The notes beneath the pieces were generated by a model. The model saw only the letters and a program-made list of their open reading frames with translations. It did no database searches and was not told the DNA's origin. From a virus: a stretch of DNA of 49,825 nucleotides. This document shows positions 334-22,074 of the stretch, piece after piece. The stretch covers positions 1-49,825 of IMG/VR virus record IMGVR_UViG_3300033388_000805. One strand, 5' to 3'. Position numbers and translations under genes: made by a program. How positions within the stretch are numbered: the first letter of the stretch is position 1; each line of letters starts with the position of its first letter.

Positions 334-900
334 ATGGAACAGACAGAGTTAAAAGTAGTTAATGCACTACTAAAGATTATCGGAGAATCACCTCTGAATA
401 CAGTAGATTTGAGTCACCCTGATGTCCTGTCTGCTCTAGGAGTCTGGGAAGAGACGAGTTCAGAGATACAATCTAGAGGATGGTGGTTCAATTTAGAAAC
501 CTGGGAATTACCTGTGGAAACCTCAGGGGAAGTTAAGCTCCCTAGTACAACCACAGCGGTACTCGCAACGGATACGAATTATATCAAGAGGGGCAGTAAG
601 TTATACCGCCTAGATACGCATAACTATGATTTCAGTGAGTTCAATACAGTAGACGCTGACCTCGTAACCGAATGGAGCATAGAAGATCTACCACCAACGG
701 CCTTCAATTACATCCTGGCAGAAGCTAAGGCAACTATGTTAGCCGACTTCGCTATGGATGCTAATAAACTAACTAAGCTCACTAATGCAGCAACCCTAGC
801 GTACCATAGGTTACAAGTCCAGAATCTTAAATTCAGTGGGCCTAATGCTACTACAAGTGGTGCTGCCCAGACGTTACTACAGAATCAACCAACTAGATAG
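334..900 (+). CDS. Tail tubular protein A (T7 gp11-like)
   Basis: This 188-residue protein matches the T7 gp11 family in length (196 in T7), in position between capsid and tail tube B, and in its N-terminus, which has the family pattern IGESPLN, then HPDV, then a QSRGWWFN block. In the virion it forms the upper tail ring between portal and nozzle. The ATG at 334 follows GGAGA with good spacing. A longer frame begins upstream at a TTG, but that lies inside the terminator hairpin and is rejected. The stop codon overlaps the ribosome site of the next gene. Confidence 0.85.
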   Translation: MEQTELKVVNALLKIIGESPLNTVDLSHPDVLSALGVWEETSSEIQSRGWWFNLETWELPVETSGEVKLPSTTTAVLATDTNYIKRGSKLYRLDTHNYDFSEFNTVDADLVTEWSIEDLPPTAFNYILAEAKATMLADFAMDANKLTKLTNAATLAYHRLQVQNLKFSGPNATTSGAAQTLLQNQPTR

Positions 901-909
901 GAGGCTATC

Positions 910-3384: not shown

Positions 3385-3393
3385 GGAGGTTCT

Positions 3394-4038: not shown

Positions 4039-4054
4039 TACACAAGGAAACTAT

Positions 4055-6892
4055 ATGGCAGAGTTAGAACGGACAGCAATCGGGAGTCCTTACAGACCTC
4101 TTGATACAAAGAGCCATGCGGTACAGGCTGATAGAACCTACGATGTTCTGTCCGGTCTAGCTGCATTAGCTGGTGGTACTTACAAGGTATACAAACAGGA
4201 ACACGCCAAGGAAATGACTAGGCGAGCTAAGAATGACCTAGTTAATAACACAATTAATCCTGATCTACAGGAACAGGAAATAGCTTATGCTAATACTGTA
4301 GCTAAGGGGCAAGCCCTGAATTCCTTCCAGGATTTGAAATCTCGGATGAACTCTGGTGAGTTCGATGAGATGGACCCAGAGAAGTTCCAAGGATTCATTA
4401 ATGCAGAACACAAGGCTACTACTAATGGTTACAGCACAAGTAAATACTACGAAAGTGCCACGAGTACGTATAACGATTTCTGGGTGAATAATGAGGCTAC
4501 CCTCTCAGCAGGACACGCAGGGAGATACCGTGGTGTACTCAAGGGTAAGCAACAGAATTCCTTGTCAGAGCAATTAATTAGTATGGCAAGGGCTAAAACC
4601 TTTACTACACAAGATATCATAAATGAGATAACAAGCCCAGATTATTCCCTATTGGATCATAAAGATCGTATGGATACAGCGTTGATAGCTGGAGGTCTTC
4701 TGGCTAGTACAGGGGATTCTAAGTTGCTGTCTGACTTCAACGATGAGTTCGACTTCGCTAGTGACCCTGAGCGGTATAAGTTATATCAGGCTAGCATGAA
4801 GACCGCCGATAAGATACATCGTACACAGAGTACAGAAGACTCACTACGATTATACCAGGCTTTCATTAAGAAGCGTGATGAGGGTACTCTTATACCAGAA
4901 GACTACAATGTACTTAAAGGTAAACTAAAACCCAATGGTGAACAGATTGTATCAATTACGAAGTTCTCTGAGGCATTAGCTAAGGGGTACTCTAAGCGTA
5001 TCACGGCATCACATATTAATAGTGGGGTTACTGGTATGACGAATGAGATAGACCTAACCGCTACCCACAGTGATAAAGAATTCAACGAGGTAGCGACTAT
5101 TGTATTCAATGATATCATGTCTAAAGAGATTGATTCCTTAGATAAGATGGCTATCTTAGGTACTAAGATTGTCGCCCAGAAGCGCCCTATCAAAGAAGTT
5201 ACCAGTATGGCACAGAAATGGGGGACTACACAACTGTACTTAGGGAACGATATTAATCCCTTAGCACAACAAGGGTTCACTCAATGGAAAGCTATGCGAT
5301 CCGCTATGAATAACGACAAGCTCTTTTATAAACAATTAGGACCTGGGGCTGATCGCTTTAAGTACATAGATAGCACAGCTAAGTTCACTGAGGGTACCGA
5401 GCAAGAAAAGGCTACTGCTGGTATTGAATCGGCTAGGACTATAGAAGATACTATAGCCAAGGGTATCCAGAGAAAGCACACAGTTATTACCGATGATCAG
5501 ATTAAGGTACGTGATAAAGGCTTAGAGACAGCTTTAGAGGGTGATGATACTTGGTTCGGTTGGGATTCTAATGAACTCGATGAGGCCGTAGCAGAAGCCC
5601 GTGAGTACATTAATCAGAAGTACTTTGAGAATGTGAATCTGAAACTACATGATCCAGAAGCAGCTATGGAATTAGCCATAGATCAAGTTATGAGTACAGT
5701 TAAGTTAATTGATGGTTCCCTTGTGAATACTCGTGGTATTGACACAGGAGTTAATGACTACGGAACCTTCATAGAATCATTCAAAGAGAATAAGATAATC
5801 TCTGAGGCGTTACCAGAGGGTTGGGACAACTATAAGGTTAAAGTCTCAGTAGATGACCAAGCGTACCTGATTGTAGACAAGCAGAATAACATACAGCATA
5901 CTGTTGGATTTAAGGATGCCATAGCCCTGATTAACTCAGAGAACCTAGGAATATATGATGGGGTGGACTATGACTCTATCTTCACAAAGGACTATGCTAA
6001 AACTACTGAGGGTAGGGAGAGACAGAGTTTAGAATTAGATAACAACGATGCGTTCTATAAGGATGTATTGAAGCTCGATGAATTCAAGGATCTACCCGGA
6101 TTACCTGAGTGGGCTACTATGAATCATGCTGATAGGATGCGTATCAGGACTAAGTTCTACAAGGACTACGAGAATGATATGAAGGAAGCCTTTCATGTAG
6201 TGAATCAATTGAAACTAAAGGAAGCAGTTGTACCTGAGTTTGAACTCAGTAGACAACCAGACTTTACCTTTGATGAATCTCTATACGATCCTTTTGCTGT
6301 TGAAGCTGATGATATACTATTTGGTAGGGGTATAAAAGCACCAGAGATTTCTACTAATAGGGCAGTTAGTAGTCCCGCTAATAAGTTTAAAAGTTTAATT
6401 AGTAAGGGGGAGGGTACAGGTCAGAACTATAATACAACTGTAAGGTACGGAAAAGATGCTCCCAAAGGTTTCAATGGTAATCTAACCAACAAGACTTTAC
6501 AGGAAGTATATGACCTAGGTATAGAATTCAGGAAGAACGAGCAGAAACGTACAGGCAGGATAAGTGGCAAGACTAGTTCAGCTATGGGTCGTTGGCAGAT
6601 AACAGGGCAGAATATGAAACAGATGGCTAAGGAACTGAAACTCCCGATGTCAACTAAGTTCACAGCCGAAGTACAAGACCAGATGTTAACACAGATATTA
6701 ATGAAGAAGCGTGGATTACAGAAATACATAGATGGATCTAAGACCCAGGCTAAAATGATAACCGACATAGCTAAGGAATTCGCTAGTTTCCCTAAGGATA
6801 AATCTGGGAATTCTTACTACGGCAACAAGACTAAGGCTAAAGTATCTTATAAAGATGTAGTCGCCTTATTGGATAGCTTAAAGGAGAAATAA
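4055..6892 (+). CDS. Internal virion protein (gp15-like) with C-terminal lysozyme domain
   Basis: The 945-residue protein occupies the T7 gene 15 position (747 residues in T7) and is probably an ejected core protein. Most of it is helical and charged. The last 160 or so residues look different: an SKGEG motif, a SSAMGRWQ motif, then FTAEVQDQM and KKRGL. This is the pattern of the lambda R type lytic transglycosylase, in which E follows SxG and GRYQ lies downstream. In T7 the wall-cutting domain is instead at the N-terminus of gp16, so its place here is unusual. ATG at 4055 follows AAGGAA; an in-frame start at 3905 overlaps gp14 and is rejected. Confidence 0.75.
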   Translation: MAELERTAIGSPYRPLDTKSHAVQADRTYDVLSGLAALAGGTYKVYKQEHAKEMTRRAKNDLVNNTINPDLQEQEIAYANTVAKGQALNSFQDLKSRMNSGEFDEMDPEKFQGFINAEHKATTNGYSTSKYYESATSTYNDFWVNNEATLSAGHAGRYRGVLKGKQQNSLSEQLISMARAKTFTTQDIINEITSPDYSLLDHKDRMDTALIAGGLLASTGDSKLLSDFNDEFDFASDPERYKLYQASMKTADKIHRTQSTEDSLRLYQAFIKKRDEGTLIPEDYNVLKGKLKPNGEQIVSITKFSEALAKGYSKRITASHINSGVTGMTNEIDLTATHSDKEFNEVATIVFNDIMSKEIDSLDKMAILGTKIVAQKRPIKEVTSMAQKWGTTQLYLGNDINPLAQQGFTQWKAMRSAMNNDKLFYKQLGPGADRFKYIDSTAKFTEGTEQEKATAGIESARTIEDTIAKGIQRKHTVITDDQIKVRDKGLETALEGDDTWFGWDSNELDEAVAEAREYINQKYFENVNLKLHDPEAAMELAIDQVMSTVKLIDGSLVNTRGIDTGVNDYGTFIESFKENKIISEALPEGWDNYKVKVSVDDQAYLIVDKQNNIQHTVGFKDAIALINSENLGIYDGVDYDSIFTKDYAKTTEGRERQSLELDNNDAFYKDVLKLDEFKDLPGLPEWATMNHADRMRIRTKFYKDYENDMKEAFHVVNQLKLKEAVVPEFELSRQPDFTFDESLYDPFAVEADDILFGRGIKAPEISTNRAVSSPANKFKSLISKGEGTGQNYNTTVRYGKDAPKGFNGNLTNKTLQEVYDLGIEFRKNEQKRTGRISGKTSSAMGRWQITGQNMKQMAKELKLPMSTKFTAEVQDQMLTQILMKKRGLQKYIDGSKTQAKMITDIAKEFASFPKDKSGNSYYGNKTKAKVSYKDVVALLDSLKEK

Positions 6893-9800
6893 TGCTCGCA
6901 GAACTATATAGCAACCAAGGTAATCTAGAAGCTATGAGTTCAGTTGTACAGAAAGCTGGTCTAGTGTCTTCCCCGGAGGACACTAATCAGTACACTCTGG
7001 ATGAACTGTACGCTAACGGTGCAGCTAAGAGAGATGCTATGGATGCCTACAATGAGGAACTAGATAATTACGATGACAGTATCCTCAAGGCTGTATATGG
7101 ATCTTTTAGGCATAGTACAGCATTCGGTGCATTAACTGAACAAGCAATAGAGAACGTGAACCAAGACTTTGATCCTGAGTTCAATATCGTTGACTCCATT
7201 GATGAGATTAAACTTAATGGGTATTCCAAGGAAGAACTTGAGGTACTCAGCAAGGGTCGTAATAATGAACATTTTGCATCTCTTGTAGAGAAGGTTAATG
7301 ACTACAAGGATCATAAGATGAACCTACAGGCCCTTGGTGTACCCTTAGCTATGGCCTCTCAGTTACTAGCTGAGGTAGCTAACCCTATTAACTACATACC
7401 CTTCATTGGGCAGGGAGCGGCTGCAACCCTCACAGTTAAAACAGTTCTAGCAGGGGCGGCTATTCAAGGGGCTTTTAATGCAGGGGAGGAAGCCTTAATT
7501 AGTACTGTATATAAAGACCGCAGTACAGTAGATTATGCCGCCTCGTTCGCCTTGGGGGTAGCCCTGAGCGGTACTATTAACGCAGCTAGACTCGGCCTAG
7601 ACCGTAAGCGCATAACTCAAGCGGCGACTGATGCTAAACAAACTAAGATATACGCTGAGTCTATGCTCAAGGATAAAGCCGACGAGGGTGTAGCCACAGC
7701 GAAAGCAGGACCACCCCCAGAGAGGGACTACACAGACTCTAGTGCCTTACGAGATAAAGATGGGGTATTGAATCCTGAGGTAGCTGATGATATGCGGGCC
7801 AAGGGGTACGATCCTGATAACGAAGTTGATAATTGGGTGCATCGCTATGATACACAAGGACTAATCCCTAGAGTACAGAAGGTAGTCCAGGAGACACTCA
7901 AGTTAGCTGGATTCTCCCAGACATTAGCAGGAAGTCCTAATAAGCATACTAGAGCTTTAAATAGGGTTCTATTCGAGCATGGTGAGGGTGGCACAGGTGT
8001 CCATAAGGAACACACAGCGACCCTTGAGGCTCATATGCAGCATAACTTCGTGTACGCTAAATACGCAAAGAGGTATGAAGAAGCTAAAGCACTGTTTACC
8101 CAGAGTGGTAAAGATACTGGTCTTACTATGAATGATTTCAATACAATTGCATTTAAGTACATAGATGGTGGGGAGAATTGGAAAGATCCTAGGTTAACTG
8201 AGGATATGATTAAGACGCTGGAGGACTTCCAAGGTGTATATAATACAGCCATTGGGGAGGTAACTGAAATAGCGCATAAGGCCGGTGTCTCGGAATTCAA
8301 GGATTGGCAGGGCATAGATAACTTCTTGTTCCGTCGACATGACCCTGAGGCGTTATACAAGTTAACCCAGGAGTTCGGGGACGATGGGAAGGCTATTAAG
8401 GAGTTATACCGTAAGTCTATAACTAATGGTGGTTGGAGACATTACTCGGATAAGATCATCCAGAAGGCCGGGGATAAGTACGATGCGACAGTAAAGGTAT
8501 GGAAAGCTAAAGGCTCTAAGGGACCCGAACCAGCTAAACCTGGGTACGATCCTAAAGACGTAGAAGCAGATATAGAACAGATAGCTAACGCTCTGTACAA
8601 CAGAATGATCAATAGGGCTACTACAACGACTGCTGATGCTAATCTTCTTAGTTCTGCGAACCAGAGTATACTATTAGACACCCTAGATGACCTTGGGTTA
8701 AGTGAAGCGAAGATGAAGCATTTCAAAGCTATGCTCAGAGAGTCTGGTAGGGATGTCAAAGGGGACCCATCTAAAGCTCGGATACAGATGGATATGACTA
8801 CCACTATAGATATTAACGGTAGGACCTTAAGTATGACTGATCTGTTAGATACTGATCTATCCCAAGGGTTCGCCTCAGTTGGTCGGTATTGGTTAGGAAG
8901 AGCAGCTATGGCTAGAAAGGGTGATCATCTTGCATCCGTTGCGGATATTCAGAAGACCTTGAATCATGCTGCTAAAGAAGGACTTAAAGCTGGTGTAGAT
9001 AAGAAGGTAAATAACCAAGAGACTAAGATTATGGAGCAGGGTATAAGGATGATCTTAGGGCAGTCTGCGGAAAGGGCAGATACTACAGGAGCTAAGTTCA
9101 TGCGTACCATTCGCAAGATGGCTGCTGCGTCATCCTTAGGTAGACTCGGTATAGTACAGGCAGGAGAAACAGGGCGTATGGTGGGTGCCGTAAACGCTGC
9201 CCAACGTATCCCTATGATCCGAGATTTAACTAAGGGCGTACTCACAGGTAAATTCAGTACAGCATCTCTAAAAGGTATTGAGGATTACGTCATAGGTGAT
9301 GTAGCCTTTAGGAAATTCTTGAACCACCCAGATTTCAGGGCAGATGACTTCGGAGAGAAGTCTGGTAAGGTTGATCAAGTCTTTGATAAGCTCGGGTATT
9401 ATCTTAGTCAAGCCTCTGGGTGGCACATAATGCACACTATGCAGACTAAGGGGTTAATAAATACTTTAGATCAGAAGTGGTACAAAGAGGTTATGGATGG
9501 TACTATGAAACCTACCCAGATGCGTGACTTAGGTGTAGATAATATTCTCATGGCAGACCTTAAGAGAAATATGAAGGCGCACGCTACAAAGACCGAAGGG
9601 TTAACCGGAAAGAAAACTCAGTGGGAAATGAATATAGAGAAGTGGGACCCTAAGACCCGTAGAGCTTATGGTATGATGCTCACAAGGAAATCTAATAACG
9701 CTATCCAGGGTATAATGACCGGAGAGACCCCTATGTGGCTGAATACAGAGATAGGGAAGTTCCTTGGTCAATTCAGGACGTTCTCTGTAGCTGCATTATC

Positions 9801-10317
9801 TAAGCAGACTACAAGGGACTACAAGATGATCCGGGAGGGTGACATGGAGGGTGCTATAAGTATGTTCTTTAATACTTGTACCTCAGTTATGGCTAATACA
9901 GCTAAGATAGGTTTCATAGCTGCTACGTTACCCTCAGATGAACGTAAGAAGTACGTAGAGAAAGCCTTGAATCCTGTAGCAATGGCGAACCAGACATTAT
10001 CCTATGTAGGTGCTTTATCTCCTTTAATGGAAGCAGGGAATCTCTTAGGGGATACTATGTTCGGTGACAAATGGGGAGAATATGCTGGAGGTAAGATTTA
10101 TAGGGGTAAAGGATTATCTGGCATGGTCCCAGGTATCAATTATATTAATAACGCCTATAAGGGTGTTACTGGTATAACCACAAGCGCACTAACGGATGCT
10201 GAGTTAACGAAGAGTGAGTACAGAGCTATGTATAGCACGATACCCTTTAGTAATAATTATGCTTCCGATTTCATAAATAACAGAGTAATTACCCCAGCGT
10301 TGTTCGGGGATAAATAA
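6892..10317 (+). CDS. Internal virion protein D (gp16-like)
   Basis: This is the largest core protein, 1141 residues against 1318 in T7, and lies in the gene 16 position between gp15 and the fibre. Its start overlaps the previous stop as TAATG, so the two are translationally coupled. Near residues 145-235 there are two hydrophobic, Ala/Gly-rich segments that could insert in the host membrane. No transglycosylase motif is visible at the N-terminus where T7 gp16 has one, which fits the domain being carried by the preceding gene. In T7 the homologue helps to pull in the leading part of the genome. Confidence 0.75.
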   Translation: MLAELYSNQGNLEAMSSVVQKAGLVSSPEDTNQYTLDELYANGAAKRDAMDAYNEELDNYDDSILKAVYGSFRHSTAFGALTEQAIENVNQDFDPEFNIVDSIDEIKLNGYSKEELEVLSKGRNNEHFASLVEKVNDYKDHKMNLQALGVPLAMASQLLAEVANPINYIPFIGQGAAATLTVKTVLAGAAIQGAFNAGEEALISTVYKDRSTVDYAASFALGVALSGTINAARLGLDRKRITQAATDAKQTKIYAESMLKDKADEGVATAKAGPPPERDYTDSSALRDKDGVLNPEVADDMRAKGYDPDNEVDNWVHRYDTQGLIPRVQKVVQETLKLAGFSQTLAGSPNKHTRALNRVLFEHGEGGTGVHKEHTATLEAHMQHNFVYAKYAKRYEEAKALFTQSGKDTGLTMNDFNTIAFKYIDGGENWKDPRLTEDMIKTLEDFQGVYNTAIGEVTEIAHKAGVSEFKDWQGIDNFLFRRHDPEALYKLTQEFGDDGKAIKELYRKSITNGGWRHYSDKIIQKAGDKYDATVKVWKAKGSKGPEPAKPGYDPKDVEADIEQIANALYNRMINRATTTTADANLLSSANQSILLDTLDDLGLSEAKMKHFKAMLRESGRDVKGDPSKARIQMDMTTTIDINGRTLSMTDLLDTDLSQGFASVGRYWLGRAAMARKGDHLASVADIQKTLNHAAKEGLKAGVDKKVNNQETKIMEQGIRMILGQSAERADTTGAKFMRTIRKMAAASSLGRLGIVQAGETGRMVGAVNAAQRIPMIRDLTKGVLTGKFSTASLKGIEDYVIGDVAFRKFLNHPDFRADDFGEKSGKVDQVFDKLGYYLSQASGWHIMHTMQTKGLINTLDQKWYKEVMDGTMKPTQMRDLGVDNILMADLKRNMKAHATKTEGLTGKKTQWEMNIEKWDPKTRRAYGMMLTRKSNNAIQGIMTGETPMWLNTEIGKFLGQFRTFSVAALSKQTTRDYKMIREGDMEGAISMFFNTCTSVMANTAKIGFIAATLPSDERKKYVEKALNPVAMANQTLSYVGALSPLMEAGNLLGDTMFGDKWGEYAGGKIYRGKGLSGMVPGINYINNAYKGVTGITTSALTDAELTKSEYRAMYSTIPFSNNYASDFINNRVITPALFGDK

Positions 10318-10327
10318 AGGAGATTAT

Positions 10328-13300
10328 ATGGCTTATAGTTATATACAAGTAGTAGGAGACGGTGTAACCTCAGTGTACACCCTAGCGTTATCTGGGCCTT
10401 CACCTGGGTACATATCTCAGGATCATATCTTTGTATCTTATGATGGGATTCTCCAGGATCAATCAGATAGGGAATTCGTCACGGAACAACAGGTAAGACT
10501 CCTGACGGTTCCTGCTGGTGGTACAGTAATTAAGGTATTCAGAGAGTCTGGCATAGAGAACCCCATAGTGAACTTCGAGGGTGGTGCTGCGTTATCCGAG
10601 AGTAACCTAGATTTGAATACCACACAGATGCTTATGTTAGCCCAGGAGGTTGAGGATACAGCCGGGAGTACCACAGAGGAACTCGATGCTGCTGTAATAT
10701 CGGCTGCGGCTAGTGCTACCTCGGCTGCTGCCTCTGCTGTTACCTCGGATGCTTATGCGAATACCGCTGAGGACGTTGAGATAGAAGCCGGGAAGTACTC
10801 TGGTCTGCATTACAGGAATAAGACCCAGGAGCTAGTTGATAGTATCACAGCGACTCCTGGAGATATGCTCAAGAGTGTATACGATACGAATGACTCAGGG
10901 GTAGTAGACTTCGCTGATACAGCTAATGCGTTAGGTGGCGCACAAGCTACAGCTATAACGGCGAACTCAGCGCACGCAGCATCTACGAGTAACCCTCATG
11001 GAGTAGACGCAGATACCGTTAATGCGTTAGCCAAGGATAACACAGACGTATACACACCTACCCTAGATTATCACCCGGCTACGAAGAAGACAGTAGATGA
11101 CGCTGTGATCTCTGCGGGCGCTGGGGATATGACTAAGGTTGTGTACGATACGAACGATGATGGTACAGTAGACTCAGCGGATACCGCAGCGGCCCTCACG
11201 GGTACTCAGGCTACCGCTATCACAGATAATACCGCTAAGGTATCCTATAGTACCGCTGCCTCTGACGCTGTAGCCCTGAATACCGCTAAGGTAACTAATG
11301 CTACGCACACAGGGGATGTCACAGGGAGTACAGTTTTAACTCTGGCTGAAGTTAATGCTAATATAGGATCTTTTACTGCTGCGAATATTACTGTTAACGC
11401 TAAGGGGTTAGTCACTGCTGCTACTGATGGTTCTGGTGGAAGTGGCTCTGGTACTGTGATTGATGTACAGACTTATGGTACAGACACAGCAGCGATTACG
11501 TCTGCCTTTGCAGCAGCAGGACAAGGAGACACAGTACTCTTCTCTAAGGCTGCTGGTGGGTACACTCTGACTTCCCCCGTAACCGCTTCCTTCAATGGTA
11601 TCATCCAGGGTGGTATGAATACAGTAACCTTGTCTGGTACAGGAGGATTCATCCTAAGTGGTACTAAGTTACTCTTTGAGGATTTCTTCCTTAATAGTGC
11701 TGCTACGAATACAGCCTCGATCCCAGCGTGTACTGGTGTATCTGTAACTCAGAGTTATGTTACTGTACAGAACGTGTACATAGATAGATTAGATAAAGGT
11801 ATCGTGGTTACTGGTAACGTAGATCATAATATCAATAACATTAAAATGAGGAATATTAAGACTACTGCTATTGAGTTAGCTAATACTGTTGGTACTACGA
11901 TGTCCGATATTAAATACGACACAGACACAGGGAGTTACTCTAAAGTTCTCCAAGGGTTGCATGTGTACGGTGAGGGTTCTCAGGTATCTGATTGTGACTT
12001 CATTAATGCTGATGTCGGTTTGAAGATTCATGGGAGATCTGTAGGAACAACTGACTGGAACTTCTTTAATACTTGTTTCTTTGACCAGTGTACCTATGCT
12101 GCTTACATCTATAATACCACAACAAGCCAACAAGTCCGTGGGCAGATATTCGATCAATGCTGGTTCGCATCAAGTACTGGTGCTGCTGGGGTGTACATCA
12201 CCGGCCCTGCTGTGGTAGATGGAATTACATTCCAGGGCTGTACCTTTATAAATAACTTCCAGAGTGCAATCTCTCTTAATAGTGTCATAAAGAACCTTGA
12301 TATCAACGGGTGCGTATTCTCAGGGAACTCCGCAGTATCCTCAGGCACGTACTCCACGATTGTATCTAATCGGACTATTGATGGAAGTACTGAGGCCGAT
12401 GCTGCACTCATCAGGAATAACTTCTTTGGTTCCTGGGGTGCCTTAGCGAATAACCAGAATGCTGATATCCAAAGGGGTAACACTGACGCTACTATGTTCA
12501 TTGATGGTAATGTAGCCCTTAGTACAGTGACTACATCGAATGTTATAGCAGGATCTTCTGTTGCTCCTGAGTACGGGGTGAACTTCGGTGGTATCCCTAG
12601 TGCCTCTGGTGGTGGTTCGGGTGATATGACTAAGGCCGTTTATGATACTAATAATGATGGGACTGTGAACTCAGCGCATACTAGTGCTGCCTTGACGGGA
12701 ACCCAGGCTACAGCTATAAGTAGCAATACGTCAGCTAGACATGCCCAGAGCCACACAGTTGCTTCTCATAGTGACACAACGGCTACCGGGAGTGAATTAG
12801 AAGTATTAACTAATGGTAGTACTACCACGTTGCATTACCACTCTGCCCCCTCACATACTATAGCATCCCACAGTGACACAACCGCTACTGGTAGTGAACT
12901 AGAGACTTTAACTAATGGTAGTACAACTGCTTTACACTATCATAGTGCCCCCTCACATTCCCTGAATTCACACACGGCGGCAACTGGTACTGTGGATATG
13001 GGTGGACAGAATCTAGGTAACACGGCTACCGTGAGTAACACAGGGATTATTAATTATAGTTGTGGGTCTGGGTCTACCCATAATTTTTTACATAGTACTT
13101 CCTTAACCGCTTATTTAGCGTCAACCTTGCTTGCTCCCAATAGCGCTAATACAGTAGCTTTAGGTTCTTCTGGTCAGTACTGGAGTGATGTACAGTCCCA
13201 AGTATTCCACCAGAAGGGTGGTGGTTATCTTGATACAATGGATGATTTAGCTGTGATGGCTGAGTTCACCCCTATGACCACTGTAGTGAACTCAGAGGAA

Positions 13301-13621
13301 GTACTCGATCTACATCCTGAGACGGGGACTATGCAGATTGATCTGAACGCCTTACCTGAGTTATTCACTAATAAGGCTACAATTCGTAAGGAGATCCAAA
13401 CTGAGTGCGGCCCGAATGTAACCGAGGAGCATATAGAGATACTCCTGGCTGACCCTAAGAAAGCTGGGCATCTGCTAAGTAGGGATCTGGGTATGTTCGG
13501 GGATCTAACCTCAGGTGCCGTCAGGCAGTTAGACATAGAGATGAAAGAGGTATTTGAACTCCTGATGTCTCGGATAACTACCCTTGAGAATAAACTCAAG
13601 GCCGTTGGGGAATTAATCTAA
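10328..13621 (+). CDS. Tail fibre (T7 gp17-like N-terminus, beta-helix body)
   Basis: Residues 1-110 match the T7 gp17 N-terminal virion-attachment domain (MAYSYIQVVGDG, SYDGILQ, LNLTTQ-like DLNTTQ). An Ala-rich stalk follows. Three loops of the type YDTNxDGxVDxAD occur near residues 184-197, 272-285 and 771-784; the first two have the spacing of calcium-binding EF-hand or dockerin loops. Between them, from about residue 380, lies a VxxYGTD start and Asn-rich rungs typical of a pectate-lyase-like beta-helix. Two 34-residue His-rich repeats follow, then an LGSSGQYW segment and a C-terminal coiled coil (TTLENKL). It should recognise the host surface. ATG at 10328 follows AAGGAG. Confidence 0.85.
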   Translation: MAYSYIQVVGDGVTSVYTLALSGPSPGYISQDHIFVSYDGILQDQSDREFVTEQQVRLLTVPAGGTVIKVFRESGIENPIVNFEGGAALSESNLDLNTTQMLMLAQEVEDTAGSTTEELDAAVISAAASATSAAASAVTSDAYANTAEDVEIEAGKYSGLHYRNKTQELVDSITATPGDMLKSVYDTNDSGVVDFADTANALGGAQATAITANSAHAASTSNPHGVDADTVNALAKDNTDVYTPTLDYHPATKKTVDDAVISAGAGDMTKVVYDTNDDGTVDSADTAAALTGTQATAITDNTAKVSYSTAASDAVALNTAKVTNATHTGDVTGSTVLTLAEVNANIGSFTAANITVNAKGLVTAATDGSGGSGSGTVIDVQTYGTDTAAITSAFAAAGQGDTVLFSKAAGGYTLTSPVTASFNGIIQGGMNTVTLSGTGGFILSGTKLLFEDFFLNSAATNTASIPACTGVSVTQSYVTVQNVYIDRLDKGIVVTGNVDHNINNIKMRNIKTTAIELANTVGTTMSDIKYDTDTGSYSKVLQGLHVYGEGSQVSDCDFINADVGLKIHGRSVGTTDWNFFNTCFFDQCTYAAYIYNTTTSQQVRGQIFDQCWFASSTGAAGVYITGPAVVDGITFQGCTFINNFQSAISLNSVIKNLDINGCVFSGNSAVSSGTYSTIVSNRTIDGSTEADAALIRNNFFGSWGALANNQNADIQRGNTDATMFIDGNVALSTVTTSNVIAGSSVAPEYGVNFGGIPSASGGGSGDMTKAVYDTNNDGTVNSAHTSAALTGTQATAISSNTSARHAQSHTVASHSDTTATGSELEVLTNGSTTTLHYHSAPSHTIASHSDTTATGSELETLTNGSTTALHYHSAPSHSLNSHTAATGTVDMGGQNLGNTATVSNTGIINYSCGSGSTHNFLHSTSLTAYLASTLLAPNSANTVALGSSGQYWSDVQSQVFHQKGGGYLDTMDDLAVMAEFTPMTTVVNSEEVLDLHPETGTMQIDLNALPELFTNKATIRKEIQTECGPNVTEEHIEILLADPKKAGHLLSRDLGMFGDLTSGAVRQLDIEMKEVFELLMSRITTLENKLKAVGELI
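12749..12952 (+). repeat. Two in-frame 102-nt repeats in the tail fibre
   Basis: Two copies (12749-12850 and 12851-12952) encode 34-residue units starting SHTxASHSDTTATGSELE and ending LHYHSAP; a partial third unit starts at 12953. The units differ at only a few residues. Each carries SH..SH and HYH, the kind of HxH clusters that bind metal ions in fibre and needle tips. Confidence 0.85.
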
Positions 13622-13785
13622 TGGATGACCTCTTGGATGTACTAGAGATGTTACTTCACACGAGCTACACAATAGGCGCTGTGGTGCTATCTAATTGGCA
13701 ACCAGTTGGCGCTGGGATACTCATGGTAATGCAAGGAGTGTACCTGTTCTATAAAATTAAACAGAAACGTAAGGAATGCAAGTAG
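13621..13785 (+). CDS. Small membrane protein, probable class II holin
   Basis: This 54-residue protein begins within the fibre stop codon (TAATG), so it is coupled to it. It has an acidic start (MDDLLDVLEM), one or two hydrophobic segments between about residues 15 and 45 and a basic tail (KIKQKRKECK). Its position between fibre and small terminase is that of T7 gene 17.5, the holin (67 residues). Holins release the lysis enzyme by making holes in the inner membrane. It was too short for a 60-residue cutoff. The call rests on topology and place, not on sequence identity. Confidence 0.65.
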   Translation: MDDLLDVLEMLLHTSYTIGAVVLSNWQPVGAGILMVMQGVYLFYKIKQKRKECK

Positions 13786-13794: not shown

Positions 13795-14070
13795 ATGTCA
13801 ACAGGAGCAGCCACCGAGGTAACACTCGGTGAACTCCATGCAGGAATTGCAAGGAGACTCAAGATACACGTAGATGATCTAGAGAGTGATCCTAGGTATA
13901 TCCAGATGGCAATCAAGTTCGTCTCTGATAACAAGATCACTTGTGTAATGGATGAGAGGAATGAACTAGGGGCGCTCGATAAATCCCTACAGAAGCGTGA
14001 GAAAAGAAAGTTCGGATCGAACGTAACAGATATAGCCACTAAGATGGCGCAGGAGGCAATCAATGAGTAA
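13795..14070 (+). CDS. Terminase small subunit (T7 gp18-like)
   Basis: The 91-residue product has the length (89 in T7) and position of gp18, which recognises concatemeric DNA for packaging. It has a helical N-terminus (LGELHAGIARRL), an internal IQMAIKFVSDNKI segment and a charged C-terminal helix. It follows AGGAGG with good spacing. In T7 the large subunit follows after two small lysis genes; here it is separated from it by 4.7 kb of other genes. Sequence similarity is only moderate by eye. Confidence 0.65.
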   Translation: MSTGAATEVTLGELHAGIARRLKIHVDDLESDPRYIQMAIKFVSDNKITCVMDERNELGALDKSLQKREKRKFGSNVTDIATKMAQEAINE

Positions 14071-14116
14071 CGTGGAAGTAAACTTAATGAGAGATAAGAA
14101 TTACAGGAAATTATAA
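14063..14116 (+). CDS. 17-residue ORF, possible truncated gene
   Basis: An ATG within the 3' end of the small terminase gene, after AGGAGG, opens a frame of 17 codons that stops immediately before the next gene's ATG. It may be the surviving start of a gene interrupted when the following cassette was acquired; T7 has its spanin genes here. It may equally be only a coupling peptide. No family is recognisable. Confidence 0.3.
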   Translation: MSNVEVNLMRDKNYRKL

Positions 14117-14593
14117 ATGAAAGCCGCAATATTTATAAAGATAAACCCTGGGAAAACATCGAGTGAAGGTGATATCGTTGATATCCTACCTATTGATATT
14201 ACGTCTATAAATTCCTTAAAAAATTACAACAGGATCTTTGATAAACATCTGCTTATTGTTGCTGATTTAATGATCCCATGTGGAGAGAAATTTAACAATT
14301 GGGATATTCAGTGTCACAAATGTCTGGTAAAAAATATGTGTGACAGGATTAAGTATATGGGGGCTATCTTTGATGATGCAACTCTTAAAGTAACTTCAAA
14401 ATATAAATGCAAGATAGACTATAAAACCTTTATTTCCGCCGATTCTCTTACGCTTATAGACGTTGAAAAAAAGACTGCAGAAGATAGAGCCAAATTAGTC
14501 GCTTTGGCATTTAATAATCCAAAAGACACGTCATTTATTATGGACAAAGCCACAACAACAAAGATTGACACAATATCAGCGGAGAAAGGGTAA
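14117..14593 (+). CDS. Hypothetical protein, first gene of the inter-terminase cassette
   Basis: The 158-residue protein begins MKAAIFIKINPGKTSSEGDI, a beta-strand-rich start, and has a Cys cluster around residues 55-75 (CGEKF, CHKC, MCDR) that could bind a metal. I do not recognise the family. Its DNA is visibly richer in A and T and uses more AAA and TTT codons than its neighbours, which suggests acquisition from another source. Its stop overlaps the ATG of the beta-helix protein, so the two probably moved together. Confidence 0.6.
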   Translation: MKAAIFIKINPGKTSSEGDIVDILPIDITSINSLKNYNRIFDKHLLIVADLMIPCGEKFNNWDIQCHKCLVKNMCDRIKYMGAIFDDATLKVTSKYKCKIDYKTFISADSLTLIDVEKKTAEDRAKLVALAFNNPKDTSFIMDKATTTKIDTISAEKG

Positions 14594-15651
14594 TGGCCTG
14601 GAGTCAATTAAGCAACACTGTTGGCCCTGCTGCTGCTTTTGGTGGGTCAAGCGACTATGCCACTCTAAATTTATTCGAGTCTGCATTTGATGGAGAAACT
14701 CCAGGGGGCGGTACTCTAACTGCTTTGTGTCGTGGTGTTGTCTGTACGTCTACGCTGTACTGGCAGGGTTGGCAATCAGGGATGGATAATGACTCTCGTA
14801 TAATCGTCAAAGCTGACGAGGGATACGAGACAGATGGCACTAACGGTGATTCTGCCTCCCCTGACTACAAAGCGATCATAACAACAGATCAGCAGTTAGT
14901 TATGGCATCAAATGCACTCTACATTGATTTTGTTGGACTTGAATTTAATACTGGGTATATTTATGTTCAGCCTGATTCTGGTGGCCCATATCAATTGCAA
15001 GCAGCAAAAAATCTTTTTAGAGATTCCCCAAGTACAGCAGTTAAGGCATCAAGTGTTGGGGTTGATGTTGTCGTCAGAATTGGTGGGAATTTAATCAAGA
15101 ATTGCGGATCGAGTCAATACGAGTCTGCATTAACATTTCTTGATGACTCTATAACCACAAGCCCTGATGTATGTAATAATACCATAGATGGTCAAGGTGG
15201 TACTTATTGGGGTATCAACGAAAACTTAGCGCAAGACGTAACTTTGCGAAATACTGTCATTGTTGACACTGTAGGTACAAATTTTCGTGGTACTGATGAT
15301 GAAGAGAATTGTGCGTCAGAAGACACAAGTGCAAATGGAACAGATTGTATTACGGGCATATCTTTAACCGCTGGTGTTGATTTTACAGACCAACCAAATG
15401 AAGATTACACGATACCAGACGATTCTTCTGAGCTATACCATACTGGTACAACTCAACCAGCGTGGTTCACGGCAATAACTGGTGGGACAGATTTAGCGGG
15501 TAACAATTGGCATACAACAACACCAAGTATTGGGTGTTTTGAGTTTGCAGAGTCAACACAATTGCCTATTAACCTTACAGGGGGTGCTACAATGGGTGCC
15601 ACCTTAACACGCCGGGTATTTTACAATAGAACATTAGAAGGAGCAATATGA
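14593..15651 (+). CDS. Putative beta-helix surface protein
   Basis: This 352-residue protein starts MAWSQLSNTVGPAAAFGG and contains repeated short strands with Asn ladders (VVVRIGGNLIKNCGSS, DVCNNTIDGQGG, VTLRNTVIV) typical of right-handed parallel beta-helices such as pectate lyases and tailspikes. It has no evident signal peptide. It is likely a virion surface or host-binding protein, inferred from the fold and from surrounding structural genes. Its base composition resembles the previous gene more than the phage core. It ends in TRRVFYNRTLEGAI, which could be an attachment segment. Confidence 0.6.
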   Translation: MAWSQLSNTVGPAAAFGGSSDYATLNLFESAFDGETPGGGTLTALCRGVVCTSTLYWQGWQSGMDNDSRIIVKADEGYETDGTNGDSASPDYKAIITTDQQLVMASNALYIDFVGLEFNTGYIYVQPDSGGPYQLQAAKNLFRDSPSTAVKASSVGVDVVVRIGGNLIKNCGSSQYESALTFLDDSITTSPDVCNNTIDGQGGTYWGINENLAQDVTLRNTVIVDTVGTNFRGTDDEENCASEDTSANGTDCITGISLTAGVDFTDQPNEDYTIPDDSSELYHTGTTQPAWFTAITGGTDLAGNNWHTTTPSIGCFEFAESTQLPINLTGGATMGATLTRRVFYNRTLEGAI

Positions 15652-15884
15652 TAGACTTCATTAAACGTCTAATCTTTTGGTTCTGGAACCCCCGATGTAT
15701 ACGAGATGCAACCGGGTGTATTATACCAGACCACAAGAGTAGGAAACACAGTAAGGACCTCCAGGCTAAAATAGACTCTGGAGAAATCATTTTACCTAAG
15801 AAAATACAAGGAGAACCTAGATGCTACAAGGTGTTAACAAAGAAGAATATAGTCCTGAAAAAATCAGGGCAGAAGTTGAAGTAG
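15648..15884 (+). CDS. Small hypothetical protein with N-terminal hydrophobic patch
   Basis: The 78-residue product starts MIDFIKRLIFWFWNPRC, a short aromatic hydrophobic patch that could associate with membrane, and then is strongly basic (KSRKHSKD, KKNIVLKKSGQKLK). It follows GAAGGAGCA, overlaps the previous gene's stop by four bases, and its 3' end overlaps the next gene by 64 nt in another frame. Both frames have good ribosome sites, so both are probably used. Function unknown. Confidence 0.5.
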   Translation: MIDFIKRLIFWFWNPRCIRDATGCIIPDHKSRKHSKDLQAKIDSGEIILPKKIQGEPRCYKVLTKKNIVLKKSGQKLK

Positions 15885-16402
15885 GGATAGTACCTAAAGG
15901 ATGCACAGTAAGCACAGTCCTCGATGCCCTTAGGTGCACTAAGAAACCTAATGTCCTAGAGGTATTCGGGCTGTTATCCCTAAAGAAGACTTCTGGTGGT
16001 GTAACAGAAGACCTCGGATTATGCTCAGTACAGTTAGTAACCACAGCCTTTACGGAGTATCTCGTTAACGCTATGCAGGATTCTAGTACGTACCCTATGG
16101 ATGTATTCCAGTATCATGGGAGTGGTACAGGGGTTACTGCTGAGGCTAATACCCAGACCACCTTAGTTACCGAGGTAGAAACCAGGGACACAGGGACAAC
16201 AGAACAAGGGGCTTCTGCTAATATCTATAAATCCGTTGCTACGCATACGTATGGTTCTACCTTAGCTATTATAGAACACGGGTTATTCTCTGCATCCTCT
16301 GGGGGTACTATGTTAGATAGATCGAGGTTAGCTACAGCGGTGAACGTGGAGGATGATGACGAGATTGAATTCACTTATCTATTAACAGTTAATGCGGAGT
16401 AG
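15821..16402 (+). CDS. Putative structural protein, jelly-roll type
   Basis: The 193-residue product has a region (about residues 70-193) rich in Thr, Ser and Gly with the pattern YHGSGTG, TTLVTEVETRDTGT, EHGLFSASSGGTMLDR and a final FTYLLTVNA. I have seen this pattern in structural proteins of many environmental phages; its exact role is not established to my knowledge. It starts at an ATG after CAAGGAG. It lies among other likely surface proteins, so a decoration or tail-attached role is plausible. Confidence 0.55.
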   Translation: MLQGVNKEEYSPEKIRAEVEVGIVPKGCTVSTVLDALRCTKKPNVLEVFGLLSLKKTSGGVTEDLGLCSVQLVTTAFTEYLVNAMQDSSTYPMDVFQYHGSGTGVTAEANTQTTLVTEVETRDTGTTEQGASANIYKSVATHTYGSTLAIIEHGLFSASSGGTMLDRSRLATAVNVEDDDEIEFTYLLTVNAE

Positions 16403-16405
16403 ACT

Positions 16406-17005
16406 ATGCCCTTCTCTGGAGATATAAATAAAAGTATCTCCTTGCATCGAGTTGTAGATGGTTCTAGTGCTTTCTCCGGGTCATTAGGGGAAAGTTCTAG
16501 TTACCATAAAACGGTACAGGGGAGTACTTCTTTTACTGGTACTGTCACAGATGTATTAATAACCGTATTAACCGTATCCGTTGGGGGTATTCTTTCTTTC
16601 TTAGGGTCACTCGGAGCTAATAATAGTTACCAAAGAACTGTGCAGGGAAATGCCTCTTTTATAGGTAGTGTTACTGATGTATGGTCGGGTAAACTCTACA
16701 GAACCTTAGGGGGAGTATTAGAATTACTCGGCAGCGTTGGGAGTGCTAGCAGTTACAAAGAAGGGGTTCAAGGGGATTTAGCTTTTGTAGGGAGCCTGGA
16801 AGGGGCCTTAGCCGGTAAATCTTTTGAAATAGTCGGTGGTATCTTGTCTTTCTTTGGGAGCGTCGGTAGATCGAGTAGCACCATCCAGGTTCTCTCCGGG
16901 GTACTCGGGAACTTCAAGGGTAAAATAACAATGAAACTAAATGGTACTCTAATAGGCAGACTATTTTTAAAGATAACTCACGCCTTCAAGGTGAATATAG
17001 GATAA
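16406..17005 (+). CDS. Repetitive Gly/Ser-rich structural protein
   Basis: The 199-residue protein consists of about four degenerate repeats of 35-40 residues, each with a GxLSFxGSLG or SFxGSV core followed by SSYxxTVQG. Similar chains of GTLSFSGAL-type repeats occur in tail and decoration proteins of other phages. The regular strands suggest a stacked beta structure. It starts at an ATG three bases after the previous stop with GGAG in front. No catalytic motif is visible. A fibre shaft or capsid decoration are the best guesses. Confidence 0.55.
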   Translation: MPFSGDINKSISLHRVVDGSSAFSGSLGESSSYHKTVQGSTSFTGTVTDVLITVLTVSVGGILSFLGSLGANNSYQRTVQGNASFIGSVTDVWSGKLYRTLGGVLELLGSVGSASSYKEGVQGDLAFVGSLEGALAGKSFEIVGGILSFFGSVGRSSSTIQVLSGVLGNFKGKITMKLNGTLIGRLFLKITHAFKVNIG

Positions 17006-17014
17006 AGGATTAAT

Positions 17015-17278
17015 ATGGAAAGAACTAACGCAATAAATCATGCTTACACTGGAACAACCTCAGCGGTAAAGATTATAGACCCCGATCCGAATAGGGCTTA
17101 CATATGCCTGTACGCAGTATCAGGGGATTGTCAGATAGCCTTTGGTGTAGAAGCCGGGACCGCCTTTGCAGATAATCACATATTATTACCTGAGGGTGTT
17201 ATGTGGGAACCTAGGATAACCCTCACAGAAGAAGTATGGTTCCTCGGGAATACCTCTAAGCTCACTGTGCTGTACTAG
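17015..17278 (+). CDS. Small beta-rich phage protein
   Basis: The 87-residue product alternates hydrophobic and polar residues (SAVKIIDPDPNRAYICLYAV, WFLGNTSKLTVLY), as in a small all-beta sandwich. Such proteins are common next to phage fibre genes and may be structural or accessory. The ATG follows AAGGATT. It is part of a run of closely spaced + strand genes with short gaps and its own ribosome site. The family is not recognised with certainty. Confidence 0.5.
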   Translation: MERTNAINHAYTGTTSAVKIIDPDPNRAYICLYAVSGDCQIAFGVEAGTAFADNHILLPEGVMWEPRITLTEEVWFLGNTSKLTVLY

Positions 17279-17286
17279 GAGGTTAC

Positions 17287-17814
17287 ATGATAACACTAGA
17301 GAATCGAATAGGGGAACCTGGGAGTCCTGCTTCATTAGGGCCTACTGTAATTGGTGAAGAATTTGGTGGTGGTTATTATGCCGGAACAGTCGGTGGTTAT
17401 TATATCATATGCCCTCCGATATCAGGGCAGAATTCAAATATTCAATGGAAAACTACTGACACTGCTACAGCGGGGACGACAAGTTTAGTTGATGGCTACG
17501 CTAATACACAAGCGATGGTTACTGGTGGTATTGAGTTACACCCAGCAGCAAGTTTTTGTATCAACTTAACAATAAACTCATTTTCAGATTGGTACTTCCC
17601 AGCCAAAGATGAGATGGATTTGCTTTATACAAACAAGACCGTCTTAACCTCGGCAGGTGCCGGGAGTTTTAATGATACTGACGCTTACTGGTGTTCTTCT
17701 GCAAGTAGTAGTACTGCTGCGTGGAATATCTATTTTGTGGATGGCTCTTGGGATGATGTTTCTTCTAAACCCAACAGCTATAGCCTAAGGGCCATAAGAA
17801 GAGTAGCAATATAA
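17287..17814 (+). CDS. DUF1566/Lcl-like C-type-lectin-fold protein
   Basis: The 175-residue protein has the pattern of the DUF1566/Lcl group: GGGYYAGTVGGYYII near residue 33, SDWYFPAKDEMDLLYTNK in the middle, then AYWCSSASSSTAAWNIYFVDG and a final SYSLRAIRRVAI. Members of this fold bind ligands at cell surfaces and some phages use C-type-lectin folds as adhesins. Here it is most likely a host-binding tip or decoration. It follows TAGGAGG. I searched by eye for a reverse transcriptase and template repeat, since such folds can be diversified targets, and found none. Confidence 0.6.
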   Translation: MITLENRIGEPGSPASLGPTVIGEEFGGGYYAGTVGGYYIICPPISGQNSNIQWKTTDTATAGTTSLVDGYANTQAMVTGGIELHPAASFCINLTINSFSDWYFPAKDEMDLLYTNKTVLTSAGAGSFNDTDAYWCSSASSSTAAWNIYFVDGSWDDVSSKPNSYSLRAIRRVAI

Positions 17815-17823
17815 GGAGGTACA

Positions 17824-18756
17824 TTGACGAAACTCAGAGATGACCTCAGGGATGAATACGGAGTTGATACCACGTACGGTTCAGACGACGCTACGATCTC
17901 TGGGGATATAACGCACAATGGAGACTTAGTTAGAACCGGGGGTACTACCCTGGTTGGCGCCTTAACTAACACAGGACCCTTAGCTGTAACAGGAACCCTG
18001 AATCACGCAGGGGGTAAAATAGATGGGTTAACTATAGTTAATACCGCTACGTACACAGTACTACCCTCTGATAATTTATTACACGTTACGTACACTGGTG
18101 CGGTTACTATAACTATACCTACAGCCTTGGTGCAGACAGGGCGTATCCTAGAGGTTAAGGCTGCGAACGTAACTAGCTTGAACCCTATTACTGTCCAGAC
18201 AGAAGGCTCAGAGCTTATTGAGGGTGTAGCGAATACCGTTATGTATAACGACTACGGTAAGATCAGTTTGTACTCTGATGGTACTGACTGGTTCCTAGGG
18301 CAAGCCTTTGGGCAACAGACGTACCCTCATGTATACGCCTATATAAGCACCGCAGCACAAACCACAGTTACTACAGCAGCTACCTTTTACCCTATAGAGG
18401 GAACCTTTGTGAACCCTATTGTAGAGGGCTTCACTATTGGGGCCTCTGGTATAACCTATGATCTAGCAGAGACACGATTATTCGAAATAGATTGGTCGGC
18501 TACGGTATTCAGTGACGATGCCAGTAGAACTATTCATGTAGGTCTCGCTAAGAACGCCGAGGCCCTTACGTACGACTCACCTACTATAATGGGGATGTTC
18601 TTGAGGTACGCTGATGACCCCCTTGGACTTTCTGGGACTTCCGTAATTGAATTAGCTCAAGGAGACACTATATCTATTGAGATAACATCCCAGAGTTCTG
18701 GGAATGTACTCCAAATTGAACACTTCAATACAACTATTAGACCGTTCAAGAGGTAA
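17824..18756 (+). CDS. Putative fibre or adhesin protein, TTG start
   Basis: The 310-residue product begins with a polar segment of short repeats (GDITHNGDLVRTG, LVGALTNTGPLAVTG) like the shaft of phage fibres, then a strand-rich middle (TDWFLGQAFG) and a C-terminal jelly-roll-like half that shows general resemblance to the protein at 15821. Start is TTG at 17824, supported by AAGGAGG five to six bases upstream; there is no better ATG. It is the last gene before the large terminase and closes the inserted cassette. Confidence 0.55.
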   Translation: MTKLRDDLRDEYGVDTTYGSDDATISGDITHNGDLVRTGGTTLVGALTNTGPLAVTGTLNHAGGKIDGLTIVNTATYTVLPSDNLLHVTYTGAVTITIPTALVQTGRILEVKAANVTSLNPITVQTEGSELIEGVANTVMYNDYGKISLYSDGTDWFLGQAFGQQTYPHVYAYISTAAQTTVTTAATFYPIEGTFVNPIVEGFTIGASGITYDLAETRLFEIDWSATVFSDDASRTIHVGLAKNAEALTYDSPTIMGMFLRYADDPLGLSGTSVIELAQGDTISIEITSQSSGNVLQIEHFNTTIRPFKR

Positions 18757-18759
18757 CTA

Positions 18760-20559
18760 ATGAGTGAATACGAGAAACAACAGGATATAGATTGGCGCTG
18801 GAATGAGCTGAGTAAACTACAGGAACACTACAGAGATTTCAGAGACTTCTATGCTGATTGTTCCGAGATGTTACTCGGGTTCACTCCTTCGGATATGCAG
18901 TACGACATAGCGAACTACGTAGCGAATGGTCCTTTATATAGTATGGTCCAGGCGCAGCGTGGGGAGGCTAAGACTACAATAACTGGATGTTTCGCTGTGT
19001 GGTGTCTGATACACGACCCGACATTCCGTGTACTTATTATATCTGCTGGATCAAAGATGGCGAAGCAGATAAGTACTTGGTGTATCCAGATTATTAACAA
19101 TATGCCTGAGTTAGATATTATGAGGTGCGACAAGAGTCACCCTGGGGCTAGAGCCTCGGTAGAAGCCTATGATGTCCATTGGCAGCTCAAGGGGGCAGAC
19201 AAGTCACCCTCGATAGCCTGTATGGGAATTACGAGTTCCATCCAGGGATTCCGGGCTGACCTCTTGGTTGCGGATGATATCGAGTCCAGTAAGAACGCCT
19301 TGACTGAGACGATGAGAGAGCAACTACAGCATCTTACCCTGGACTTCACTAGTATTAACTCCAAGGGACGCATAGTGTACCTCGGGACACCTCAGAGTAC
19401 AGACTCAGTTTACAATAGATTACCCAGCCGTGGGTTCGAAGTGAGAATCTGGCCGGGACGCTACCCTACCCCAGCAATGGAAGAACAGTACGGAGAACAC
19501 CTTGCCCCGTATATCAAGGTGCGGATGTACAAAGATCCAATGCTAAGAGAAGGTGGTGGCCCTGTTGGAGACCTCGGACAACCCTCAGATCCTATTATGA
19601 TGGACGAAGAGATATTAACCAGGAAGCAACTAGATCAAGGTCTAGCGTATTTTAATCTACAGTTCATGCTGAATACTTCCTTGATGGATGCTGATAGATA
19701 CCCCTTGAAATTAAATGACTTAATGATCCATACCTTCGATGAAGAAGAGTGCCCTGGGAAGTTCATCTGGGGTAACGATCTCGCACACAGGATACCTATG
19801 GTATCTGGCTCAAACTTACCGAAGGAGAAACTCTATGCACCGATTAAGGTACATGATGAATACTTCCCGTATAGTATCCGTCTGATGAGTATAGACCCGG
19901 CTGGTGGTGGACAGAATGGTGATGAGACCGGAGTAAGTGTTCTTTATGAGTGCAACGGATTCATTATTGCTAAGTGGGTCACAGGTATCCCCGGAGGTAC
20001 AACAGAGGACCGTTTGAATTTAATCGTAGATATGATCGTGAAGTACCGTGTTAATAAAGTCCTCTGTGAGAAGAACTATGGTAACGGTGCTTACACCGAG
20101 GCATTACGAGGAGCATGTATCAAGAGGGACGTTAAGGTAGATATCGAGGAAGTCTGGTCAGCAGGACAGAAGGAACTCCGTATCATAGATTCCCTAGATC
20201 CCGTCATAGGGTCGCACAAGTTACTCATAGATACCCGTGTGATAGAACACGATGTCATCAGTACAGAGCGTTACCCTATTGAGAAGCGTACCTCGTATCA
20301 ACTCCTGTTCCAGATGTGTAAACTCACACGGGACAGAGGGGCATTGATACACGATGATAGACTAGAGAGCTTATCTCAGGGTGTCACGTACCTCATGCAG
20401 AATATAAGTAAGGATGCTAACTGGGCTATAGCTCAGAAGAAGCAGAGAAAGTTACAAGAGTTCCAGCGTGATCCCTTTGGTGTCTGGAGACACCGCTACC
20501 AGGATAACCACGCTATTCAACCAGGATCAATGGGCAATGCCCTTGGTCGATTCAAATAA
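18760..20559 (+). CDS. Terminase large subunit (T7 gp19-like)
   Basis: The 599-residue protein (586 in T7) is the DNA-packaging ATPase and nuclease. The ATPase half has a Walker A variant AQRGEAKTT at residues 65-73 and a Walker B LLVADDIES near 168-176. The nuclease half starts at MSIDPAGGGQNGDETG near residue 377, where the Asp is the first acidic metal ligand, and has further acidic residues in VLCEKNYGNG. Processing at concatemer ends with direct terminal repeats is expected for this family. The ATG follows AGGTAAC three bases after the previous stop. Confidence 0.9.
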   Translation: MSEYEKQQDIDWRWNELSKLQEHYRDFRDFYADCSEMLLGFTPSDMQYDIANYVANGPLYSMVQAQRGEAKTTITGCFAVWCLIHDPTFRVLIISAGSKMAKQISTWCIQIINNMPELDIMRCDKSHPGARASVEAYDVHWQLKGADKSPSIACMGITSSIQGFRADLLVADDIESSKNALTETMREQLQHLTLDFTSINSKGRIVYLGTPQSTDSVYNRLPSRGFEVRIWPGRYPTPAMEEQYGEHLAPYIKVRMYKDPMLREGGGPVGDLGQPSDPIMMDEEILTRKQLDQGLAYFNLQFMLNTSLMDADRYPLKLNDLMIHTFDEEECPGKFIWGNDLAHRIPMVSGSNLPKEKLYAPIKVHDEYFPYSIRLMSIDPAGGGQNGDETGVSVLYECNGFIIAKWVTGIPGGTTEDRLNLIVDMIVKYRVNKVLCEKNYGNGAYTEALRGACIKRDVKVDIEEVWSAGQKELRIIDSLDPVIGSHKLLIDTRVIEHDVISTERYPIEKRTSYQLLFQMCKLTRDRGALIHDDRLESLSQGVTYLMQNISKDANWAIAQKKQRKLQEFQRDPFGVWRHRYQDNHAIQPGSMGNALGRFK

Positions 20560-22000: not shown

Positions 22001-22040
22001 GCCGGGGGTTATCCTGAATGATACCAAGGGGTTACAATAG

Positions 22041-22074
22041 AAAGTGTCTCATTAATCCGAGTGAGACACTTTTT
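22041..22074 (+). terminator. Late terminator, copy 1 of a twin pair
   Basis: AAAGTGTCTCA at 22041-22051 pairs perfectly with TGAGACACTTT at 22062-22072 and runs into a T tract. Nearly the same hairpin, including the loop start TTAATC, occurs at 44515-44548. It ends the structural and packaging transcript. Confidence 0.85.

Follow-up and report, generated by a model that had tools for sequence, protein, structure and literature searches.

The genes between TerS and TerL

The window, by which we mean the whole stretch of 49,825 nucleotides analysed here, is G000, a complete virus record whose two ends are identical over 114 bp. Its gene order is syntenic with that of T7-like phages, and the RNA polymerase, portal, TerS and gp17-type fibre anchor (Table 1) mark it as a T7-like phage of the Autographiviridae type. 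The closest cultured phages by TerL are the Rhizobium phages Paso and RHph_X3_9, which are about 50% identical. The 54-aa membrane protein that precedes TerS has homologues in relatives L014-L016.

Table 1. Landmarks of the window and genes of the TerS-TerL interval
Feature	Position	Strand	Evidence or remark
Tail tubular proteins, internal virion proteins, gp17-type fibre	289-13621
gp17-like tail fibre, 1097 aa	10328..13621	+	N-terminal anchor PF03906, E 2e-15
54-aa membrane protein, class II holin position	13621..13785	+	position and hydrophobic segment
TerS, left slot border	13795..14070	+	PF11123 (DNA_Packaging_2), E 2e-14
17-codon ORF	14063..14116	+	AGGAGG ribosome site; overlaps TerS end
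c1, 158 aa	14117..14593	+	GC 33.8%; no detectable relatives
c2, 352 aa, Ser/Thr/Gly/Asn-rich	14593..15651	+	judged on sequence; no detectable relatives
c3, 78 aa, basic, hydrophobic N-terminus	15648..15884	+	overlaps c4
c4, 193 aa, tail-collar/fibre-associated family	15821..16402	+
c5, 199 aa, tandem-repeat protein, period 42 (2 x 21)	16406..17005	+
c6, 87 aa	17015..17278	+	a weakly similar protein is encoded amid the virion genes of L083, a T7-like locus
c7, 175 aa, putative DUF1566/Lcl_C (C-type-lectin-like) domain	17287..17814	+
c8, 310 aa, fibre-like, TTG start	17824..18756	+	phrog_20556 baseplate protein, E 2e-8
TerL, right slot border	18760..20559	+	phrog_17672, E 1e-121
Single-subunit RNA polymerase	26353-29040		PF00940, E 1e-92
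Family A DNA polymerase	33864-36095
Portal (T7-type)	45935-47485		PF12236, E 8e-48

The gap between TerS and TerL amounts to 4690 bp and is filled by eight ORFs, all on the same strand and here named c1 to c8. The original prediction, made from the sequence alone, had placed seven genes between the terminase subunits; the insert is indeed multi-gene, and the count rises to eight with c6, which had been overlooked. The stop codon of the 17-codon ORF abuts the start of c1 (TAAATG), and the length of this ORF is by itself unremarkable. In relatives the first slot gene begins at the overlap with the TerS end where the window has the 17-codon ORF, which is possibly a leader or a remnant of an earlier first slot gene.

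The first two genes had also been described as AT-richer than the rest. This holds for c1, set against a genome mean of 44.4% GC, and fails for c2 at 42.9%, where GC is depressed at third codon positions only (0.30); GC3 is low in c7 as well. By codon usage c1 (z -3.0) and c2 (z -2.7) are mildly atypical, yet two core genes deviate as much (-2.8 and -3.3), making codon usage weak evidence of foreign origin, and it was dropped as proof that c1 and c2 were imported. Import is shown by comparison with relatives and not by base composition.

A phage-promoter-like motif is found in four copies within the window (at 22223, 29151, 29221 and 44618). Because the motif scan gave no copy inside the slot, the slot is probably transcribed late together with the structural operon. 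Scanning the slot region for sigma-70 promoters gave fewer sites than shuffled sequence did.

The terminase interval across relatives

The gap was compared in a sample of about 85 loci, consisting of eight annotated cultured relatives and the best 80 IMG/VR relatives. TerS and TerL are almost always adjacent in the 60-odd relatives. Among loci in which both genes could be located, only the clade of the window and locus L086 exceed a gap of about 230 bp. The latter has a gap of 1089 bp with genes of lysis type, namely lipoprotein-like, membrane and cell-wall-hydrolase-like genes (identified by eye). Among cultured phages, T7 and Salmonella phage 1Sgal1PP carry Rz between TerS and TerL, mutPK1A2 carries an HNH gene there, and cyanophage S-CBP3 has other genes spanning about 2.4 kb; in the remaining cultured phages sampled down the TerL ranking the two genes are adjacent. 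The ORF adjoining TerL in vB_PaeP_YZ2 is TerS by HMM.

In the TerL tree the window forms one clade with G001 (L010), L011, L012 and L013 (support 100/99), with L014-L017 (gaps of 126-138 bp) as its sister. The clade comprises five IMG/VR metagenomic records, two of which are 99.75% identical. Besides that of the window, its gaps measure 3947 bp (G001), 1036 bp (L011 and L012) and 870 bp (L013), and the slot is specific to this TerL clade. As all five members have an insert and the sister group is without one, the simplest reading is that the slot opened once, in the stem of the clade.

These comparisons bear on the spanin genes, which had been expected between the terminase subunits and reported as missing. 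They are indeed missing, there being no family or sequence sign of a spanin among the eight slot ORFs. The nearest relatives have none there either, however, and the expectation is modelled on T7 and is wrong for the lineage of the window. A displaced lysis region, in which the cassette replaced spanins that formerly lay between the terminase genes, would fit the presence of Rz at this junction in T7-type phages. The junction is empty in the sister clade and in almost all of the nearer relatives, so there was nothing to replace, and this very improbable explanation was rejected.

Variable content at the same boundaries, the check proposed with the original prediction, was found: the other four clade members have different genes between the same borders. 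None of c1-c8 was found in these four members, no slot genes are common to different sub-lineages of the clade, and vertical conservation of the same genes was not seen. G001 and L012 are alike on both sides of the slot: identity is 87% on the left, up to a point 82 nt inside the first slot gene, and 92% on the right, from 11 nt before TerL onward. Between these breakpoints there is no detectable homology between the 3.87 kb of G001 and the 0.96 kb of L012 (the G001 junction was obtained by joining contig ends over a 99-bp overlap). Between G001 and the window the packaging, structural and main replication genes are syntenic, with 35-76% protein identity, and no late region lacks a counterpart apart from the slot and distal tail fibre; the capsid gene, which spans the ends of the window, lay outside this comparison set. 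The interval is an exchangeable genomic slot with fixed borders, the content of which is replaced wholesale between close relatives.

In G001, the nearest complete relative, the slot encodes two proteins of the tail fibre family (290 aa, E 4e-10; 459 aa, E 1e-28), a Gly-rich protein of 427 aa that matches 'tail fiber assembly' phrog_863 (E 7e-7), and a protein of 156 aa without assignment. The slot proteins of L011/L012 (245 and 102 aa) and of L013 (293 aa, with a signal-peptide-like start) gave no family match, so fibre identity is firm only for G001. In G001, L011 and L012 the gp17 gene consists of the anchor domain alone (117-119 aa); PF03906 was found in the window fibre and the anchor-only gene of L011, of which the G001 gene is a homologue. 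No other long fibre gene was found in G001, and with an anchor-only gp17 the slot would have to supply the receptor-binding part. That the window has a full-length gp17-type fibre of its own was counted against the reading developed below.

A nearly identical N-terminus of 22 aa (M-P/A-YTYR-x-VKGSPLTH...) is encoded by the first slot gene of G001, by that of L011 and by the 459-aa gene of G001; over this stretch the two G001 proteins, otherwise unrelated, are 86% identical. The peptide is absent from the window and from elsewhere in the loci searched. It may be a docking tag.

The complete replacement of content between G001 and L012, together with the tail fibres in the G001 slot, supports the earlier suggestion of an exchangeable host-recognition or decoration module, the products of which would be located at the virion surface. 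A mixed accessory (moron) island, that is, a junction permissive to any gene in which surface-like genes are only part of the content, would be in keeping with the different genes found at this junction elsewhere, in T7, mutPK1A2, Hafnia phage Ca (PMC8861465), L086 and S-CBP3, as well as with c1, which bears no sign of a virion protein. Such an island is nonetheless unlikely, as the identifiable content within the clade is fibre or adhesin and a decoupled fibre anchor occurs in these very genomes.

Resemblances of the window's slot proteins

IMG/VR scans returned no relatives for c1, c2, c5 and c8. For c2 there were none in genome contigs either, a single weak phage match (E 0.04) being all that was found, and neither c2 nor c8 had a match in PDB sequence searches. 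Judged by eye, c2 is possibly a parallel beta-helix surface protein. A virion role for c1, c2 and c3, which are without informative relatives, would be a guess. AlphaFold models of c4 (from a 4-sequence alignment) and c8 (from the single sequence) were both poor, with a pLDDT of 39; the low-confidence model of c8 suggests that its C-terminus is probably a beta-rich tip.

In other phages the relatives of c4 have fibre genes or repeat proteins as neighbours. In Achromobacter phages, c4 homologues lie directly upstream of tail-fibre genes, and in siphophages a homologue lies between the tape measure and the tail fibre. A match to PF23140 (Gp80, podophage GP4 fibre I) at 18.7 bits (E 0.002) falls below the curated cut-off of 27.0 and is taken as a lead only. 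A weak match to phrog_240 'head protein' (E 1.5e-4), and the position of the homologue shortly downstream of the major capsid gene in L090, L091 and MW202796, would instead suit a head-decoration module, with c4-c6 coating or decorating the capsid and not acting as receptor-binding parts of the tail. The siphophage location speaks against this, as does MW202796 itself, where the c4 homologue is part of a cluster of fibre genes downstream of the capsid gene and is followed by fibre and C1q-type genes; moreover the G001 slot is clearly one of tail fibres. We judge head decoration to be as improbable as the mixed island.

A repeat protein comes after the c4 relative, either immediately or a few genes further on, in L090 (period 21), L091 (period 19) and MW202796 (period 18). 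The periodicity of c5 and of these three proteins exceeds that of 200 shuffles, whereas that of four control proteins does not. By phmmer the 21-residue repeats of c5 had no direct similarity to the repeats of L090, L091 and L118; as such, the c5-like proteins are tied together by architecture and linkage to c4 and not by repeat sequence.

The DUF1566/Lcl_C profile matches c7 at 32.9 bits, somewhat below the curated cut-off of 34.9 (E 9e-8), and c7 also matches phrog_4245 (E 3e-24) and, weakly, HbP1 in the PDB (8q4e, E 0.009). A LamG-DUF1566 adhesin-like protein of L116 is 45% identical to c7 in its C-terminal part, its N-terminal part being a ConA-like lectin (LamG) domain. DUF1566 proteins are frequent targets of diversity-generating retroelements (DGRs; PMC6642488), and c7 would by its domain fit a DGR target region. 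No reverse transcriptase was found in the window, G001 or G004, in a search whose control was positive in three genomes, and no pair of template and variable repeats was found at c7. The DGR, the least probable of the explanations considered, was thereby rejected.

A proposed slot for surface proteins and its known parallels

We consider it likely that the TerS-TerL interval is a clade-specific exchangeable slot for virion surface proteins, that is, for parts of tail fibres or adhesins. The slot would supply the parts that bind the receptor, and these would attach to the gp17 anchor or to the tail, with the short common N-terminus of the relatives' slot proteins acting as the docking tag, and its products would most likely enter the virion as fibres or adhesins. 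Exchange would proceed by homologous recombination in the flanks, namely TerS plus the tag on one side and TerL on the other, which is probable because the breakpoints sit just inside these conserved segments. The window, retaining its full-length gp17-type fibre, would use the slot set to add to, widen or change surface binding. That set may be made up of c4 and c5 as a fibre or decoration pair, c7 as a lectin-like adhesin, c8 as a fibre and c2 as a possible beta-helix.

A more far-reaching reading, to which we give less than even weight, is that the clade has uncoupled receptor binding from gp17. Some members would keep a bare anchor, and a slot in the packaging operon, from TerS plus the tag to TerL, would take up whole fibre sets. 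The set in the window would then include an undescribed two-component fibre, made of the collar-like c4 and of c5 with repeats of 18-21 residues, a pairing that is also found linked in three or more other phages.

The usual view of T7-like phages is one of rigid synteny and of a host range set mainly by gp17. With a fixed slot away from gp17, at which close relatives swap entire sets of fibres, host-recognition genes would escape tools that examine gp17 alone. The genomes compared here also form a natural series, from an anchor with slot fibres, through a full fibre with extra slot proteins, to phages with no slot, which is suited to the study of how phages shift between designs with one fibre and designs with several. 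A concrete candidate for a fibre type not yet described is the recurrent pair of c4 and a tandem-repeat protein.

Modular receptor-binding proteins are known to be exchanged on a T7-type anchor, and this has been tested (PMC8262889). As in the T7-like Klebsiella phages KP32, K11 and KP34 of that report, in which receptor-binding and anchor proteins can be distinct, a conserved virion anchor would in the clade of the window be combined with receptor-binding parts that move horizontally. In the Klebsiella phages, however, these parts lie inside or beside the gp17-type gene, whereas in the clade of the window the slot is located past the holin and TerS genes and holds up to eight genes. Cobaviruses (PMC6775973) likewise have T7-like virions and a multi-protein, genome-specific fibre region beside the terminase gene, but theirs separates the terminase gene from the end of the genome and does not lie between TerS and TerL. 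The insertion junction itself is shared with T7 (Rz), with mutPK1A2 and with Hafnia phage Ca, where a homing endonuclease (HNH) lies at the TerS-TerL junction; those inserts are short lysis or homing-endonuclease genes, unlike the multi-gene, putative surface module of the window. In Podoviridae sp. ctwe8250 (MW202615), a podovirus found via the MW202796 member, TerS and TerL likewise have a c4-family 'tail collar fiber protein' between them. The literature searched, which covered sources outside subscription, yielded no account of a fibre module placed between terminase subunits. The modularity of tail fibres is already known, and what appears from sequence comparison to be new is its place between the terminase subunits.

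Promoter-like and palindromic sequences

The 19-mer TAACTACCCCCTCTAGTAG, of which the window holds four copies against 0.03 expected, is likely to be a promoter of the phage RNA polymerase, and each of two terminator-like hairpins lies about 70–150 bp ahead of one of its copies. Palindromic GTATACAATTGTATAC elements are repeated in the early region and are possible operator sites.

Features in the window and in a podovirus
Feature	Genome	Position	Strand	Remark
Conserved 19-mer TAACTACCCCCTCTAGTAG	Window	22223, 29151, 29221, 44618	+	4 copies
Terminator-like hairpin pair	Window	22027-22074, 44501-44548		83% identity to each other
Palindromic GTATACAATTGTATAC elements	Window	22689, 25764, 25986, 29126, 29193, 30009, 33394		Early region
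Exact direct repeat, 115 bp	Window	38074-38188, 38880-38994		Copies 806 bp apart
c4 + c5 pair	Window	15821-17005		
Locus with a c4-family 'tail collar fiber protein'	L122 (MW202615), podovirus	432-7835		Between TerS and TerL

Direct repeat and tail fibre motif

The direct repeat copies overlap ORF starts at 38145 and 38951. Within the gp17-type tail fibre (10328-13621) the motif DTNxDGxVxxAxT, resembling a calcium-binding loop, occurs three times; an EF-hand_6 match to this protein (E 1e-4) was under the cut-off.

The c4 pairing and the terminase junction in other phages

The pairing of a c4-family (tail-collar/fibre-associated) protein with a tandem-repeat protein of 18-21-residue repeats, like c5, was found in four phages: L090, L091, L118 (MW202796) and the window. 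In another T7-like lineage (L086, 683-1632), the interval between the small (TerS) and large (TerL) terminase genes contains one lipoprotein-like gene, one membrane gene and one cell-wall-hydrolase-like gene, so the TerS-TerL junction is an insertion point used recurrently.
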